From Geodermatophilus tzadiensis (GTDB lineage Bacteria; Actinomycetota; Actinomycetes; Mycobacteriales; Geodermatophilaceae): a stretch of DNA of 64,000 nt. The notes beneath the pieces were generated by a model, which saw only the letters and a program-made list of their open reading frames with translations, was not told where the DNA came from and did not search any database. Positions 37,611 through 44,052 of this stretch are shown one piece after another; position 1 is the stretch's first letter; each line of letters starts with the position of its first letter. The translations under genes and the position numbers were made by a program. The DNA is taken from assembly GCF_003002915.1 (NCBI RefSeq), contig NZ_PVTG01000001.1:124001-188000 (forward strand), given 5' to 3'.

Positions 37611-38732
37611 GTGTCCGACGCCACCCACCCCCTCCTCCCGCCGGGGACGCCGCTGCTGCGGCGCTCGGCCGACGCCCTGCAGGTCGGCGGCATCGACGGC
37701 GCCGACGGCCTGCTGGTCGGCGCCGATCCCGACGCGGTCAGGGCCCTGCTGCGCGGCCTGGACGGCCGCCGGGCGCAGCGGGCGGTCCTCGCCGACGCCG
37801 GCGCGGCGGGCCTCGACCCCGGGTCGGTCACCGACCTGCTGGCGGCCCTGCGCGTCGCGGGCGCGCTGGTCGACCTGGAGGCCGCCGACCTGCTCGCCGC
37901 CGACGCCGGCCCGGCCGCCACGGTCCGCACCGCCGCCGAGCTGGCCGCCGCCCGCGACGGCACCGGCTCCTCGCGCTGGCACGCCCGCCGCGGCGCCTCC
38001 GTGGTGGTGGAGGGCGCCACCCGCGTCGGCGTCCCGGTGGCGGTGCTGCTGGCCGCCAGCGGCGTGGGGCGGGTGAGCGTGCGCGACGCCGGGGTGGTCA
38101 CCGCGGGCGACGCCGTCCCCGGAGGGCTGGCCGCCGGCGACGAGGGACGGCCGCGCACCGCGGCCGCCGCCGACGCGGTCCGCCGCGCCGCGCCGCTCAC
38201 GGATCTGCGGCCGCCGGCACCGGGCGCGCGTCCCGACCTCGTGGTCCTCGCCCGGCCCTGGGCCGCCTCCGACCCGTTGGTGGCCGGGTTGCGCGATGCC
38301 GGCGTGGCGCACCTGGTGGCCGCCGTGCGCGGGGAGACCGGGGTGGCCGGCCCGCTGGTGGTGCCGGGCGTGACCAGCTGCCTGCGCTGCGCCGACCTGC
38401 ACCGGCGCGACGCCGACCCGGCCTGGCCGGTGCTGGCCGCGCAGCTGACCGCCGCCGACGGGCCGCCGAGCGGCGCCGCGCTCACCTGCTGGGCCACGGC
38501 GCTGGCCGCCACGCAGCAGGCGCTGGCCTACCTCGACGGCAGCGGCAGCCCGGCGGCGCTCTCGGCTGTGGTCGAGCTGCGCCCGCCGGACCTGGCCCCG
38601 CGGCTGCGCCGGTGGCCACCGCACCCGGGCTGCGGGTGCACCGGGGCGCCCCGGCCGCCCACCGCGCCGGGCGAGGACGTCCCCGGCTCCGTCAGCGGCC
38701 CGGGCGCTGCGCAGGGGACAATGGCCCGGTGA
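37611..38732 (+). CDS. ThiF/cyclodehydratase-like protein with degenerate nucleotide loop
   Basis: A 373-residue protein. The N-terminal 120 residues resemble the peptide-clamp-like part of ThiF-type cyclodehydratase proteins; residues about 125-300 resemble an E1 Rossmann domain ([33 protein letters not shown]), but the ATP-binding GxGxxG is changed to [25 protein letters not shown] and HPGCGC give paired cysteines, probably a zinc site. No precursor peptide or partner YcaO gene is near. The homologue in M. tuberculosis also sits before the ABC1 kinase gene. GTG is the start; the end overlaps the kinase gene by four bases. Confidence 0.78.
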
Positions 38733-40063
38733 GCGACGACGCACAGGGGATCCCCAGGGGCTCGATCTCGCGCACCGCGCGACTGGCCTCGCTGCCCCTG
38801 GGCGCCGCCGGGCGGGCCACGCTCGGGATCGGCAAGCGGCTGTCGGGCCGCCCCCAGGAGGCGGTGACCGCCGAGCTGCAGCAGCGCACCGCCGAGCAGC
38901 TGTTCGCCGTGCTCGGCCAGCTCAAGGGCGGGGCGATGAAGCTCGGCCAGACGCTGTCGGTCTTCGAGGCCGCCGTCCCCGACGAGGTGGCCGCCCCCTA
39001 CCGCGAGGCGCTGGTCAAGCTGCAGGAGGAGGCGCCGCCGATGCCGGTGCGCACCGTGCACGCGGTGCTCGCCCAGCAGCTCGGCGGCACCTGGCGCACC
39101 CGGTTCCGCGAGTTCGACGACCAGCCGGCGGCCGCGGCCAGCATCGGCCAGGTGCACCGCGCCACCTGGCGCGACGGCCGCGAGGTCGCCGTCAAGATCC
39201 AGTACCCGGGCGCGGCCACCGCGCTGATGGCCGACCTCAACCAGCTCGCCCGCTTCGCCCGGCTGTTCGCCGCCCTCTTCCCCGGGCTGGACGTCAAGCC
39301 GCTGATCGCCGAGCTCAAGGCGCGGGTGGTCGAGGAGCTCGACTACGGGCTGGAGGCCGACGCGCAGCGCCAGTTCTCCGCGGCCTACGCCGGCGACCCC
39401 GAGATCGTGGTGCCGCGAGTGGTGGCCAGCGCGCCCAAGGTGATCGTGTCGGAGTGGCTCGAGGGCCTGCCGCTGTCCCGTGTGATCGCCGAGGGCACCC
39501 GCGAGCAGCGCGACCGGGCCGGCCACCTGATGGCCGTGCTGCACTTCTCCGCGCCCACCCGGGCCCGCCTGCTGCACGCCGACCCGCACCCGGGGAACTT
39601 CCGGCTCGTCGAGGGCGACCGGCTCGGCGTCATCGACTTCGGCGCCACCGCGCGGCTGCCCGACGGGCTGCCCGAGCCGATCGGCCGCCTGGTGCGCTGG
39701 GCGCTGGAGGGCCGCGCCGAGGACGTGCTGACCGACCTGCGCGGCGAGGGCTTCGTGCTCCCCGGGGTGGAGGTGCACGCGCAGGGCGTCCTGGACTACC
39801 TGCGGCCGATGCTCGAGCCGATCGAGCGCCACGGCTTCCGCTTCACCCGGAAGTGGATGCAGGAGCAGGCCGCCCGGCTCGCCGACCCGCGCAGCGAGGC
39901 CAACCGGCTGGGGCGCCAGCTCAACCTGCCGCCGGCCTACCTGCTCATCCACCGGGTGACCATCGGGTCGATCGGCGTGCTGTGCCAGCTCGACGCCGCC
40001 GCCGACTACCGCAGCGTGCTGGAGGAGTGGCTGCCCGGCTTCGTGCCCGACCGGACGCCGTGA
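38729..40063 (+). CDS. ABC1/UbiB-type atypical kinase
   Basis: A 444-residue protein. The KxGQ motif is in [13 protein letters not shown], the Ala-rich nucleotide loop in [12 protein letters not shown], the lysine in VAVKIQYPG, the catalytic loop in [11 protein letters not shown] and the metal motif in [13 protein letters not shown]1 proteins support isoprenoid-quinone or lipid metabolism through ATPase-like activity. The GTG overlaps the ThiF-like gene (GTGA). A GACAAT box six bases before the GTG might also give a separate leaderless message. Confidence 0.93.
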
Positions 40064-40069
40064 CGCGAG

Positions 40070-40114
40070 GAGGCCGGGCTCCCGACGCACCGGGAGCGTC
40101 GGGAGCCCGGCCTC
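40070..40114. terminator. Bidirectional hairpin terminator after the ABC1 kinase gene
   Basis: A perfect 19-base-pair stem (GAGGCCGGGCTCCCGACGC and its complement) with a seven-base loop, between two convergent genes. It is the longest perfect hairpin in the window. Confidence 0.85.
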
Positions 40115-40148
40115 GGCCGGTGGGACCCCTGCGGTAGCGGGTCCTCGA

Positions 40149-40313
40149 TCAGCGGACGGCGGCGCTGGCGCGCGCGGCACGCCGGGTGGCGTACTCGGCG
40201 CGCCGGGCCCACCGGCGGGCGGCCAGGAGCCGGCGCGCCCGTCCGGCGGCATCGGCCTCGGCACGCAGCTCGCTGAGCCGTGCGGTCGCCAGGTCGTACT
40301 CGTACGTGGTCAT
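40149..40313 (-). CDS. Small Arg/Ala-rich helical protein downstream of whiB7
   Basis: A 54-residue protein (TTYEYDLATARLSELRAEADAAGRARRLLAARRW) that should form one long basic amphipathic helix. The ATG has a GAGGAAG ribosome site. It lies 80 bases after whiB7 on the same strand and may be part of that transcript. No function is recognised. Confidence 0.6.
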   Translation of the reverse strand: MTTYEYDLATARLSELRAEADAAGRARRLLAARRWARRAEYATRRAARASAAVR

Positions 40314-40393
40314 GTCGCTTCCTCGGTGCTCGTCGGGCGTCGGTGCCCGCTCGGACTGCAGGTGTCGGTGCTGGTCGAGGTGCCGCCCGCCGC

Positions 40394-40741
40394 TCACGCG
40401 GCGACGACCTTGCGGGGACGACCCCGCGGGCGCTTGCGCGGGATGACCGCACCCCGCTCGAAGATCTCGCCGCCCCAGACGCCCCACGGCTCGCCGCGGT
40501 CGAGCGCACCGGCCAGGCAGGCGTCGCGGACCGGGCAGTCGCCGCAGAGGACCTTGGCCTGCTCCAGCTGCGCCGGGCTCTCGGCGAACCACAGGTCGGG
40601 GTCCTCGGTCCCGCGGCAGGGCAGGGGCCGCCGCACCGGTGCCGGGGCCAGGGGCGTGTGCGGCGTCCGCGGGGTGGCACCGCCGGTCCGGGGGAGCCCG
40701 GGTCGGCGGTGGGACGTCGGGCGCTCGATCGTCTGTAGCAC
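40394..40741 (-). CDS. whiB7: WhiB7 antibiotic-resistance regulator
   Basis: A 115-residue Wbl protein. Cys42, Cys66, Cys69 and Cys75 bind the [4Fe-4S] cluster, GVWGGE is at 87-92 and the C-terminal RGRPRK is an AT-hook, the mark of WhiB7. In the family it binds sigma-A and AT-rich DNA upstream of -35 boxes to induce resistance genes when translation is blocked. The GTG has a GAGGAGGAG site upstream. Its leader, about 570 bases, contains an AT-rich promoter, a leader peptide gene and a hairpin attenuator. uvrD2 lies upstream on the same strand, as in mycobacteria. Confidence 0.93.
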   Translation of the reverse strand: MLQTIERPTSHRRPGLPRTGGATPRTPHTPLAPAPVRRPLPCRGTEDPDLWFAESPAQLEQAKVLCGDCPVRDACLAGALDRGEPWGVWGGEIFERGAVIPRKRPRGRPRKVVAA

Positions 40742-40827
40742 TGCCGCTCCTCCTCGTACTCGTCGTCTGCGCGGCCGGCGGGGGCCCGCCGACCGGGTGG
40801 TCGGGGCCGGGTGCCGCGGAGATGACA

Positions 40828-40864
40828 GAGGCCGCGGATCCCGGGGTTCGGGTTCCGCGGCCTC
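40828..40864 (-). terminator. Attenuator hairpin in the whiB7 leader
   Basis: On the minus strand, GAGGCCGCGGA pairs with TCCGCGGCCTC (11 base pairs), extended by an inner CCCG/CGGG stem, and is followed by the pyrimidine-rich TCTGTCATCTCC. It begins 19 bases after the leader-peptide stop codon and ends 86 bases before the whiB7 start. This position fits an intrinsic terminator that is bypassed when translation of the leader peptide is disturbed. Confidence 0.65.
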
Positions 40865-40883
40865 GAGGAGGACCGTCGAGCGG

Positions 40884-41234
40884 TTAGCTCTGCGGTCTCC
40901 CCGGGGGGTGGTTCCCGAGGGTGTGGTGCGTGTTCTCGATGTCGGTGCGCTGGTCGGCGACGGCCACGACGCCGGTGCCGAGGACGCCGGTGCCGAAGAC
41001 GCGGGTGCCGAACACGTCGGTGCCGGGCAGGGCGGCGGTGGGCAGACCGGTCCCCTGGGCCGGGGCGGTGGGCGCGACGACGGCGGTGCCGGTGAGCTCG
41101 AACGGCGTCATCGACCGCACGACGGCGTACCGCGGACGAGCGGTGGGCACGACGACGGCCGGGGCCGGACGCGCGGCGAGGGCACCCGGGCCGGTGACCC
41201 CGGCGGGGGTGCAGATCGACGGAGTGCTGATCAC
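40884..41234 (-). CDS. Leader peptide gene upstream of whiB7 (116 residues)
   Basis: The frame starts at GTG after a strong GGGAGGAGGGGG ribosome site and keeps strong third-position GC bias, so it is probably translated. The protein is rich in Thr, Pro, Val and Ala and has a run of near-repeated pentads (GTDVF, GTRVF, GTGVL, GTGVV) at about residues 71-90. A rare AGA codon lies four codons before the TAA stop. The stop is 19 bases before the attenuator hairpin. In other actinobacteria whiB7/wblC leaders contain an upstream frame whose translation controls attenuation, and this is likely its role; the peptide itself resembles nothing I know. Confidence 0.6.
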   Translation of the reverse strand: MISTPSICTPAGVTGPGALAARPAPAVVVPTARPRYAVVRSMTPFELTGTAVVAPTAPAQGTGLPTAALPGTDVFGTRVFGTGVLGTGVVAVADQRTDIENTHHTLGNHPPGRPQS

Positions 41235-41320
41235 GGGTACCCCCTCCTCCCGGGGTCGGAGCCGCGGTCGGGCCGGGCTCGGTCTGGCGCGCCCGAGGGG
41301 TCCCGTCAGGCGCAGATCGG

Positions 41321-41360
41321 ACAGTAGGGGCCCGCGCGTCCGGGCCGCAATCGAATTAAC
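41321..41360 (-). promoter_or_regulatory. whiB7 promoter with AT-rich WhiB7 site
   Basis: On the minus strand: GTTAATTCGA, directly followed by the -35-like TTGCGG (41350-41345), an 18-base spacer and the -10 TACTGT (41326-41321). An AT-rich block just upstream of -35 is the WhiB7 binding layout and is otherwise rare in this GC-rich window. It implies autoregulation. Confidence 0.65.
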
Positions 41361-41426
41361 GACGGCGTCCTCCGGCCGCGGGACGCGCGCTCCGGCGACC
41401 GCCCCGTCAGGACGGTGCGTGAGGGC

Positions 41427-43469
41427 TCAGTCGCCGACGGTCGCCAGGACCTCGTCGCCGTAGAGCTCGAGCTTGCGCGCCCCGACGCCGGGCAGCCCCG
41501 CCAGCTCGCGGGTGCTGGTGGGCCGGGCCTCGGCGATCGCCTGCAGGGTGGCGTCGCTGAAGACGACGTAGGCCGGCACGGAGGCGGCCTGCGCGGTGGT
41601 GCTGCGCCAGGCGCGCAGCCGCTCGAACAGCTCCCCCGCCTCGCCCTCGAGCACCACCTTGGCCTTCTTGGCCTTCCGGGCCACGGGCACCGCCGACGGC
41701 GTGCTGCCGGGCACCAGGCCCTCGAGGAACCGGCTGCGGGAGCGGGGCCGGCGCGCCCCGGGGTTGCGCACCAGCGACCAGGACAGGGTGAGCTGCTCGC
41801 GGGCGCGGGTCACGGCGACGTAGAGCAGCCGCCGCTCCTCCTCCACCGCCTCCGGCCGAGCCAGCGACTGCGCGATGGGCAGCACGCCGTCGACCAGGCC
41901 CACGACGAACACGGCGTCCCACTCCAGGCCCTTGGCGGCGTGCATCGAGGCCAGCGTGACGCCCTGCACCGTCGGCGCGTGCTGCGCGTCGGCCCGCTCG
42001 GCCAGGTGCGCGACGAACCGCGGCAGGTCGGTGGTCGGGTCCTCGGCGACCAGGTCGACGGCGAGGTCGACCAGCGCGGCCAGCGACTGCCACCGGTCGC
42101 GCGCCGCTCCGCCGGCCGGCGGGCGGTGCTCCACCCAGCCGGTGGAGGCGAGCACGTCGCGGACCGTGGGGACCAGCGCCCCGGGCTCGCTGCCCCCGGC
42201 CGCCGCGCCGCGGAGCAGGACGACGGCCTCGCGGACCTCCGGCCGTTCGAAGAAGCGCTCCCCGCCCTTGAGCACGTAGGGCACCCCGGCGTCGGCGAGC
42301 GCCGACTCGTACACCTGCGACTGGGCGTTGATCCGGAACAGCACCGCGATCTCCGACGCGGGCGTCCCGGCCTCGACCAGGGCGCGGCAGGCCTGGGCGA
42401 CCGCGGCGGCCTCGGTGGGTTCGTCGGCGTGCTCGAGGAAGCGCGGCGCCGGGCCCTCGGCGCGCTGGCCGAGCAGCCGCAGGCCGGGCAGCCCCTTGCG
42501 CGGCGGCGCCTGTCCGATGAGCTTGTTGGCCAGGGCGACGACCTGCGGCGTGGACCGGTAGTCGCGCTCGAGCTTGACCACCTCGGCGTCGGGATAGCGG
42601 TCGGCGAAACCCAGCAGGTGGTCGGGGTCGGCGCCGGTGAAGGAGTAGATGGTCTGGTTGGGGTCACCGACCACGCACACGTCGGCCCGGCCGCCCAGCC
42701 ACGCGTCGAGCAGCCGCTGCTGCAGCGGGTTGACGTCCTGGTACTCGTCGACGACGAAGTGCCGGTACTGCCCGCGCACCTGCCGGGCGACGTCCGGGTG
42801 CTCCTCCAGCGCGAACGCGGTGACCAGCAGCAGGTCCTCGAAGTCGAGGGCACCGTCGCGCTGCTTGGCCGACTCGTAGGACGCGTACACCCGCGACACG
42901 GTGTCGGCGTCGAACGGCGGCTCGCGGCCCGCGGCCTGCGCCCGCTTGGCGTAGTCCTCGGGCGTGGCCAGCGTCGTCTTGGCCCACTCGATCTCGCTGG
43001 CGAGGTCGCGCAGGCTGGTGCGGTCGGTGGTCAGCCGGTTGCGGGTCGCCGCCGAGGCGACCACGCGCAGCTTGTTCTCGACCAGCGGCGGCATCGGCCC
43101 GCCCAGCACCCGGGGGGCGAAGTAGCGCAGCTGGCGCATCGCCGCGGCGTGGAAGGTGCGGGCCTGCACGCCACCGACACCGAGCCCGGCCAGCCGGGTG
43201 CGCAGCTCCCCCGCCGCGCGGGCGGTGAAGGTCACCGCCAGCACCTGCTCGGGCACGAAGGCACCGGTGTGCACGCCGTAGGCGATGCGGTGGGTGATCG
43301 TGCGGGTCTTGCCGGTCCCGGCGCCGGCGAGGATGCACACCGGCCCGCCGACCGCCTGCGCCGCCGTCCGCTGCTCCTCGTCGAGCCCGGCCAGCACCGC
43401 CTCGGCACCGGCGGTCGAGGGCGCCGGGGCGCTCCCGGCACGCCCGGGGGCGTCGGCTGTCTGCGGCAT
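41427..43469 (-). CDS. uvrD2: ATP-dependent DNA helicase UvrD2
   Basis: A 680-residue superfamily 1A helicase. Motif I is LAGAGTGKTRT, motif II VDEYQDVNPLQ, motif III GDPNQTIYSFTGA, motif IV DYRSTPQVV, motif V VTLASMHAAKGLEWDAV and motif VI YVAVTRAREQLTLSW. The last 80 residues form an HRDC domain (FERLRAWR, ELAGLPGVGARKLELYG). Mycobacterial UvrD2 has a tetracysteine motif between motor and HRDC; here that region (PVARKAKKAKVVLEGEAG) has no cysteine. The ATG has GGAGGACC upstream. It is divergent from the mycoredoxin gene. Confidence 0.94.
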   Translation of the reverse strand: MPQTADAPGRAGSAPAPSTAGAEAVLAGLDEEQRTAAQAVGGPVCILAGAGTGKTRTITHRIAYGVHTGAFVPEQVLAVTFTARAAGELRTRLAGLGVGGVQARTFHAAAMRQLRYFAPRVLGGPMPPLVENKLRVVASAATRNRLTTDRTSLRDLASEIEWAKTTLATPEDYAKRAQAAGREPPFDADTVSRVYASYESAKQRDGALDFEDLLLVTAFALEEHPDVARQVRGQYRHFVVDEYQDVNPLQQRLLDAWLGGRADVCVVGDPNQTIYSFTGADPDHLLGFADRYPDAEVVKLERDYRSTPQVVALANKLIGQAPPRKGLPGLRLLGQRAEGPAPRFLEHADEPTEAAAVAQACRALVEAGTPASEIAVLFRINAQSQVYESALADAGVPYVLKGGERFFERPEVREAVVLLRGAAAGGSEPGALVPTVRDVLASTGWVEHRPPAGGAARDRWQSLAALVDLAVDLVAEDPTTDLPRFVAHLAERADAQHAPTVQGVTLASMHAAKGLEWDAVFVVGLVDGVLPIAQSLARPEAVEEERRLLYVAVTRAREQLTLSWSLVRNPGARRPRSRSRFLEGLVPGSTPSAVPVARKAKKAKVVLEGEAGELFERLRAWRSTTAQAASVPAYVVFSDATLQAIAEARPTSTRELAGLPGVGARKLELYGDEVLATVGD

Positions 43470-43667
43470 GCGCAGGTCCTCCAGGGGGCTGTGTCCTCGG
43501 GTGGGGCGGTCGGTCGGGAGACCGTCGCCGAGTCTCCCAGCCCGGGACGACAGACGGCGGGGACACCCCGGGGCTGGGGACGGCGGACGCGGCCGGGGAA
43601 GCTCCGCACCGCCCGCGGCGTTGCACCGGGCCGAGCGACCGCTCCCCCGACTCCCTGGAGGACCCGA

Positions 43668-43931
43668 GTGACTGCCGCCCCCGCCGCCGTGACGATGTAC
43701 ACCACCACCTGGTGCGGGTACTGCGTGCGGCTGAAGAAGATGATGCAGCGCGAGGGCATCGAGTACGCCGAGGTCGACATCGAGCGCGACGCGACCGCCG
43801 CCGACGTCGTCATGCAGGCCAACGGGGGCAACCGCACCGTGCCGACCCTCGTCTTCGCCGACGGCAGCGCCCTGACCAACCCCAGCATCGACCAGGTCAA
43901 GGCCCAGCTGGCGCAGCAGAACGGCGGCTGA
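43668..43931 (+). CDS. mrx1: Mycoredoxin Mrx1
   Basis: An 87-residue glutaredoxin-fold protein. The active site is CGYC at residues 16-19 (MYTTTWCGYCVRLKKMM), and GGNRTVPTLVFADG holds the cis-proline. Mycoredoxin reduces mixed disulfides between proteins and mycothiol. A GGAGGACC ribosome site precedes the GTG. The position next to uvrD2 is shared with mycobacteria. Its presence supports a mycothiol-based thiol economy, in line with SigR/RsrA. Confidence 0.93.
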   Translation: MTAAPAAVTMYTTTWCGYCVRLKKMMQREGIEYAEVDIERDATAADVVMQANGGNRTVPTLVFADGSALTNPSIDQVKAQLAQQNGG

Positions 43932-44052
43932 CCGGCGGGTGCTGTCCGGTCGCCGACCCCCGGCGGTGCATGATCGGACCCCGGCGGGTCGCGACCGTGA
44001 CCCCCGTCCGTCCCCCGGCCGACCGGTCGGAGCACCCGCGGGAGCCGCTGAC

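Follow-up and report, generated by a model that had tools for sequence, protein, structure and literature searches.

The whiB7 leader of Geodermatophilus tzadiensis: a probable attenuator with a largely drifting leader peptide and a candidate macrolide arrest site

WhiB7 is a hub of intrinsic antibiotic resistance in actinobacteria, and control of its gene through translation of an upstream open reading frame (uORF) is already known. Published passages describe uORF attenuation of whiB7/wblC (PMC11550727, PMC10727445, PMC9618640) as well as induction of whiB7 by many drugs and by amino-acid starvation in other actinobacteria; according to a passage in a further paper, stalling in the whiB7 uORF by antibiotics had not been tested (PMC12121999). 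The whiB7 locus of the soil bacterium Geodermatophilus tzadiensis, whose leader frame has 116 codons, raises the question of what in such a leader is kept as peptide, what is kept as RNA and what is filler. The window analysed here, a stretch of 64,000 nucleotides of this genome, carries the promoter, leader frame, terminator hairpin and whiB7, all of which are read on the minus strand. An initial annotation, made from the letters alone, had listed an AT-rich block, -35 and -10 boxes, a 116-codon frame with ribosome site and third-position GC bias, an AGA codon, a 19-base gap, an 11 + 4 bp hairpin and whiB7, and we found every one of these parts. The features of the locus are:

41351..41359, minus strand: AT-rich block upstream of the -35 box (sequence)
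41345..41350, minus strand: -35 box TTGCGG (sequence)
41321..41326, minus strand: -10 box TACTGT (sequence)
41240..41251, minus strand: ribosome-binding site of the leader frame, GGGAGGAGGGGG (sequence)
40884..41234, minus strand: leader frame (uORF), 116 codons, GTG start, TAA stop (reading of the ORF; frame kept in relatives)
41130..41138, minus strand: Arg33-Pro34-Arg35, R-X-R (+X+) motif, proposed macrolide arrest site (sequence comparison)
41040..41054, minus strand: GGGACCGGTCTGCCC, conserved nucleotide element (codons GTGLP) with pause-like consensus (codon conservation)
40965..41024, minus strand: four GTxV(F/L/V) pentads, variable filler (sequence, clade comparison)
40896..40898, minus strand: AGA codon four codons before TAA, paired inside the antiterminator (sequence and folding)
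40848..40918, minus strand: predicted antiterminator, uORF end paired with the 5' arm of the terminator (folding)
40828..40864, minus strand: intrinsic-terminator hairpin, 11 + 4 bp, weak U tract (TGTCATCT) (folding and conservation)
40394..40741, minus strand: whiB7, 115 aa (Pfam Whib, E 2.1e-15)

The promoter at 41321-41359 consists, in this order, of the AT block, TTGCGG, 18 nt and TACTGT, and a loose form of it is present in 43 of the 50 loci compared. It appears to be of the WhiB7 type, with an AT-rich block at the -35 box as in autoregulated whiB7 promoters; this block (41351..41359) we take to be the site of autoregulation by WhiB7. The encoded protein has cysteines at positions 42, 66, 69 and 75, GVWGG at 87 and RGRPRK at 106; it matched zero NCBIfam families at E<=1 and scored 16.1 against Pfam AT_hook, under the cut-off of 17.4. 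Orthologues were detected in 107/112 genomes of the family Geodermatophilaceae (E<=1e-25) and in 103/118 genomes of the class (E<=1e-20).

The layout of the leader exceeds chance, as judged across loci with a fixed rule, that is a strong ribosome site, a frame of <=160 aa and a stop 12-36 nt before the hairpin. From 210 loci, 2 were dropped because their upstream part was too short and 28 as duplicates; 167 of the remaining 180 unique upstream regions satisfied the rule and 13 failed it. Among 60 loci fetched later as a replication set, 53 satisfied it; 3 loci without hairpin, 4 without uORF, 1 with a uORF of <=30 aa and 12 redundant ones were left out there, which leaves 40. The uORFs (n=220) have a median length of 94 aa and range from 23 to 158 aa, although some starts are surely miscalled (e.g. 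in locus L223). As 41% of them reach at least 100 aa, the leader of 116 codons is not unusually long, contrary to what had been supposed. Six Streptomyces-like uORFs measure 90-108 aa, and mycobacterial ones, where correctly called, about 42-56 aa.

The terminator hairpin comprises 11 bp, one mismatch and 4 bp and is separated from the stop codon by 19 nt; in folding, the segment 40822-40910 is more stable by 7.4 sd than its shuffled versions (n=200). A terminator between uORF and whiB7 is conserved among the loci compared; that of the window has a weak U tract. When the RNA was folded with its end placed before the 3' arm of the terminator, the minimum-energy structure was one long hairpin from 40918 to 40848 (-39.9 kcal/mol), which joins the last codons of the frame (the last ~35 nt) with the 5' arm of the terminator. 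This is the mutually exclusive antiterminator for which RNA folding had been recommended, and it is abolished in folding when a ribosome footprint is blocked at the stop codon, with the terminator remaining. Once the whole RNA is folded, the terminator is the more stable of the two (-62.1 as compared to -46.6 with the antiterminator forced), and the switch must therefore be kinetic.

Support for the antiterminator beyond the window comes from tests on 94 of the 167 loci, the number left after removal of near-identical or odd-length ends. The uORF end pairs with 7.1 of 11 terminator-arm bases in 33 Geodermatophilaceae as compared to 4.8 after synonymous recoding (p 4.7e-7), and with 7.7 of 11 as compared to 6.3 in 61 loci of other families (p 3.2e-7); four or more arm bases are paired in 33/33 and 57/61 loci, respectively. 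Native duplexes are on average better than swapped ones (p 8e-6 and 1.4e-5), the native duplex being among the best 5% in 0% of the Geodermatophilaceae and 26% of the other families. The RNAalifold consensus of an alignment of 40 loci comprised 5 pairs, with neither covarying antiterminator pairs nor compensatory changes; the antiterminator arms are out of register in this alignment. The peptide ends in a conserved stretch (TTLGIHSPGRPxS or similar) where synonymous change is only 0.00-0.08, and its conservation is therefore explained by the RNA. Two simpler candidates were discarded: pairing of CCCGGGGAGACCGC with GCGG..CCCCGGG was superseded by the 40848-40918 fold, and the hairpin at the uORF end alone is compatible with the terminator, so that only the extended form can serve as antiterminator. 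On the basis of these folding models, the antiterminator is likely to be correct as drawn.

By sequence and folding, the locus thus possesses a promoter, a translated-looking frame, a terminator and an antiterminator. The combination of the latter three agrees with published whiB7/wblC attenuation and bears out the leader attenuation proposed initially; the locus is almost certainly a ribosome-mediated transcription attenuator of this kind. In itself it is an ordinary member of the known whiB7/wblC uORF attenuators. During normal growth, the ribosome would reach the stop codon and cover the 5' arm of the antiterminator, which would allow the terminator to form and keep whiB7 off. Translation halted anywhere well upstream in the frame would let the antiterminator form first, and RNA polymerase would read into whiB7.

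What, then, is kept in the frame? In pairwise alignments within four clades, 184 of 192 gaps inside the uORF are multiples of three as compared to 23 of 121 in the spacer that follows the terminator, although such pairwise counts repeat shared events and are not independent. The pN/pS values of the uORF in the four clades are 1.07, 1.11, 1.01 and 0.77, as compared to 0.15, 0.24, 0.26 and 0.10 for their respective whiB7 genes, which were used as yardstick because pN/pS may be biased in GC-rich frames (GC of the leader frame is 0.71/0.63/0.93 at codon positions 1/2/3). A ratio near one, which had been named beforehand as speaking against the leader peptide, was thus found for most of the peptide; the reading frame is nevertheless kept. 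As judged from these comparisons, the ratio refutes a sequence-specific peptide over most of the length and not translation of the frame: translation appears to matter, most of the residues do not. With the greater part of the peptide free to drift, the frame very probably serves to sense slow translation in general.

One short peptide motif departs from this drift. R-X-R was first spotted by eye in lists of uORFs and then tested against shuffles with the last 14 residues removed, because arginines at the uORF ends come from the antiterminator. It occurs in 29 of 35 non-redundant uORFs of Geodermatophilaceae (10.9 expected) and in 36 of 50 from other families (13.3 expected), that is, pooled, in 65/85 as compared to 24.4 expected (z 10.8). 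The excess is confined to this spacing, RR, R..R and R...R being at expectation in the first set, and the motif shows no such excess in neighbouring genes (115 segments from 20 genes, z 0.4). These segments and the other spacings are better controls than the two other reading frames, which are near saturation (62.0/79 and 77.4/82 expected) and hence weak. In the replication set, for which the prediction was written before fetching, R-X-R was found in 20/40 uORFs (12.7 expected, p 0.002) and R/K-X-R/K in 29/40 (17.5 expected, p 0.001), again with no excess of other spacings; the effect is smaller than in the first set. R-X-R is missing from roughly one in four of the first non-redundant uORFs and from half of those in the replication set. 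G.X.G is likewise in excess, in agreement with the GTG element described below. As a separate observation, R..R falls below expectation in the replication set (loci L211-L270; 6/40 as compared to 12.6 expected, z -2.7).

The arginine codons of R-X-R vary synonymously (CGC, CGG, CGT), and it is therefore the peptide that is kept. Among ten Geodermatophilus, the lowest pN/pS values of all defined windows (0.30 and 0.32) lie at VPTARPRYAV. A second Geodermatophilus clade has a shallow dip at RLR (0.76), undercut by one window (0.66) where the frame ends, and in Streptomyces-like uORFs R-E-R is at 0.41 with deeper dips outside it. K-H-R stands 17-23 codons from the stop in nine uORFs, of which eight belong to Mycobacterium or to relatives in that family group. 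Taken together, these comparisons indicate with high confidence that R-X-R is under selection as a peptide.

R-X-R (+X+) is described as a macrolide/ketolide arrest motif with X in the P site, in a source whose passages also state that erythromycin stalling on ErmDL hardly depends on +X+ and that some +X+ do not stall (PMC8298421). In the G. tzadiensis leader, X is proline. If ribosomes stall on the leader peptide, as proposed initially, the R-X-R excess and the pN/pS minimum make Arg33-Pro34-Arg35 a likelier site than the pentads or the AGA codon. This motif would most probably be a programmed arrest site for macrolides/ketolides; as more than 80 codons separate it from the stop, a ribosome arrested there would not obstruct the antiterminator. 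That R-X-R acts as a macrolide arrest site is, on balance, the more probable reading of these comparisons. If true, it could explain macrolide sensing by the whiB7 leader; for each species, the comparison singles out one candidate triplet of codons where ribosomes would be expected to stop under a macrolide. In the titles, abstract openings and passages covered, we found no literature linking whiB7 uORFs with +X+ motifs.

The strongest rival dispenses with such a site: any halt on the long frame would free the antiterminator, and R-X-R would be a by-product. The pN/pS near one over most of the frame and the absence of R-X-R from 20/40 replication uORFs favour it, as does the response of whiB7 to many drug classes and starvation reported in passages on other actinobacteria, which requires no specific arrest site. 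However, the spacing-specific excess of R-X-R was found twice, its arginine codons vary synonymously, and the pN/pS minimum in the clade of the window lies at the motif, all of which speaks against this rival. We regard this rival as rather unlikely, and an attenuator that combines a general translation sensor with a dedicated macrolide arrest site as the probable and overall best explanation.

The second kept part of the frame is the element at 41040-41054, and it is kept as nucleotides. GTGLP is written GGG ACC GGT CTG CCC in the window. In 52 Geodermatophilaceae the second glycine is GGT in 49 (background of GGT 148/1119), leucine is CTG in 44/44 and proline is CCC in 43/43, although CCG is commoner elsewhere; 10 of 10 further uORFs have GGT as well. 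In other families the core changes, yet NTG keeps its G in 26/26, the preceding codon its T in 20/26, and YCC is kept in 24/26. The pattern GGSANCNNTNTGYCC is present in 66/220 uORFs, always in frame 0 and never antisense, and the stricter GGSACSGGTNTGYCC has a single occurrence in the whole genome. The distance to the hairpin varies from 49 to 294 nt, and R-X-R lies downstream of the element in 35/54 and upstream in 19/54. The element fits, as GGGACCGGTCT|G, the consensus of elemental RNA-polymerase pauses (G-10, Y-1, G+1) given in the available passages of PMC12288461, and it may pause RNA polymerase and thereby let the lead ribosome catch up. A role as pause site is conceivable and somewhat doubtful.

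Alternatively, the element could pair with the stretch behind the stop codon and block the antiterminator when the frame is untranslated. At some loci this duplex is strong, at about -22 kcal/mol, and no other window of the frame pairs better. Against it, the median p relative to synonymous recoding is 0.15 and 0.19 (61 loci), the pairing is weak in the G. tzadiensis window itself, the element is unchanged where its partner changed, and other families replace the CCGG core and keep the T, TG and CC positions. As a general mechanism the pairing was rejected, since it fits only part of the loci, and it is an improbable substitute for polymerase pausing. We tentatively suggest for Actinomycetes at large, at somewhat less than even chances, a disposable uORF with two kept devices: an Arg-X-Arg macrolide stop at the level of the peptide and, in many lineages, a polymerase pause site that couples ribosome and polymerase before the terminator.

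Other parts of the frame fared less well. The initial annotation had attributed read-through to ribosomes stalled either on the pentads or at the rare AGA codon. Both features exist, and AGA is rare elsewhere in these frames; it stands at the same place in 64/167 uORFs. However, the number and the sequence of the pentads differ among ten Geodermatophilus, most of which have none, and they lie in a region with pN/pS >2, which speaks against them as sensing element; AGA is paired within an arm of the antiterminator, so that a ribosome stalled there should keep whiB7 off, and in folding a footprint blocked on AGA indeed abolished the antiterminator and left the terminator. That stalling at either site drives read-through is very improbable. 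A reading of the pentads as copies of the GTGLP element was rejected, as they use GGC and the element keeps GGT. Nor does a functional small protein seem credible: a strong ribosome site, third-position GC bias, 53 database relatives and a stretch with pN/pS of 0.16-0.5 in Streptomyces-like frames would suit it, but pN/pS is close to 1 as compared to 0.10-0.26 for the adjacent whiB7, the length ranges from 23 to 158 aa and searches of the leader peptide against Pfam and NCBIfam gave zero matches. The peptide had been called undescribed, which holds insofar as its named database relatives are hypothetical proteins and falls short in that, named or not, 53 relatives exist besides the window's own.

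In trp-type amino-acid operon attenuators, the position of the ribosome selects between terminator and antiterminator, and polymerase pausing couples both. The Geodermatophilus leader would share this choice and, as proposed here, the coupling by pausing, whereas its frame is far longer and has no run of codons for one amino acid. The whiB7/wblC attenuators of mycobacteria and Streptomyces, as far as the published passages go (PMC11550727, PMC10727445, PMC9618640, PMC13393426, PMC4128351), have the same long leader, uORF with ribosome site, Rho-independent terminator, antiterminator overlapping the uORF end and autoregulated whiB7 downstream. The present locus differs in host family and in that the exact antiterminator was mapped in Geodermatophilus, and those passages do not mention the conserved R-X-R and the pause-like element. 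ErmDL likewise carries R-X-R (Arg6-Leu7-Arg8), in a leader peptide that precedes a resistance regulator or gene, but it is described as very short and controlling translation (PMC8298421), whereas the Geodermatophilus motif lies in mid-frame of a 116-codon uORF and would control transcription. The toiL uORF of E. coli topAI is, in the passages available, also one uORF sensing several classes of ribosome drugs; it acts on translation rather than termination and shows no sequence relationship to the present frame (PMC12121999). For the family as a whole, interest attaches to two features of a leader peptide that drifts elsewhere: the candidate macrolide arrest site and the conserved element with its pause-like consensus.

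Several minor observations concern the surroundings of the leader. An Rfam search of 38000-44000 yielded nothing real, its two matches being far under the gathering score. The interval between terminator and whiB7 contains a GC-rich, hairpin-capable stretch (40770-40815, minus strand; CCGACCACCCGGTCGGCGGGCCCCCGCCGG) that is kept in Geodermatophilaceae. Directly downstream of whiB7, a 53-aa frame rich in Arg and Ala (40155-40313, minus strand) had no match in a Pfam search, and upstream lies a UvrD-type helicase with HRDC domain (41427-43475, minus strand). One Geodermatophilus genome has a second WhiB7-like frame (G003:C17:2272-2520; 63% identity, E 9.9e-30). WhiB7 of Geodermatophilaceae carries ~36 additional N-terminal residues, and matches elsewhere in the order mostly begin near residue 37.
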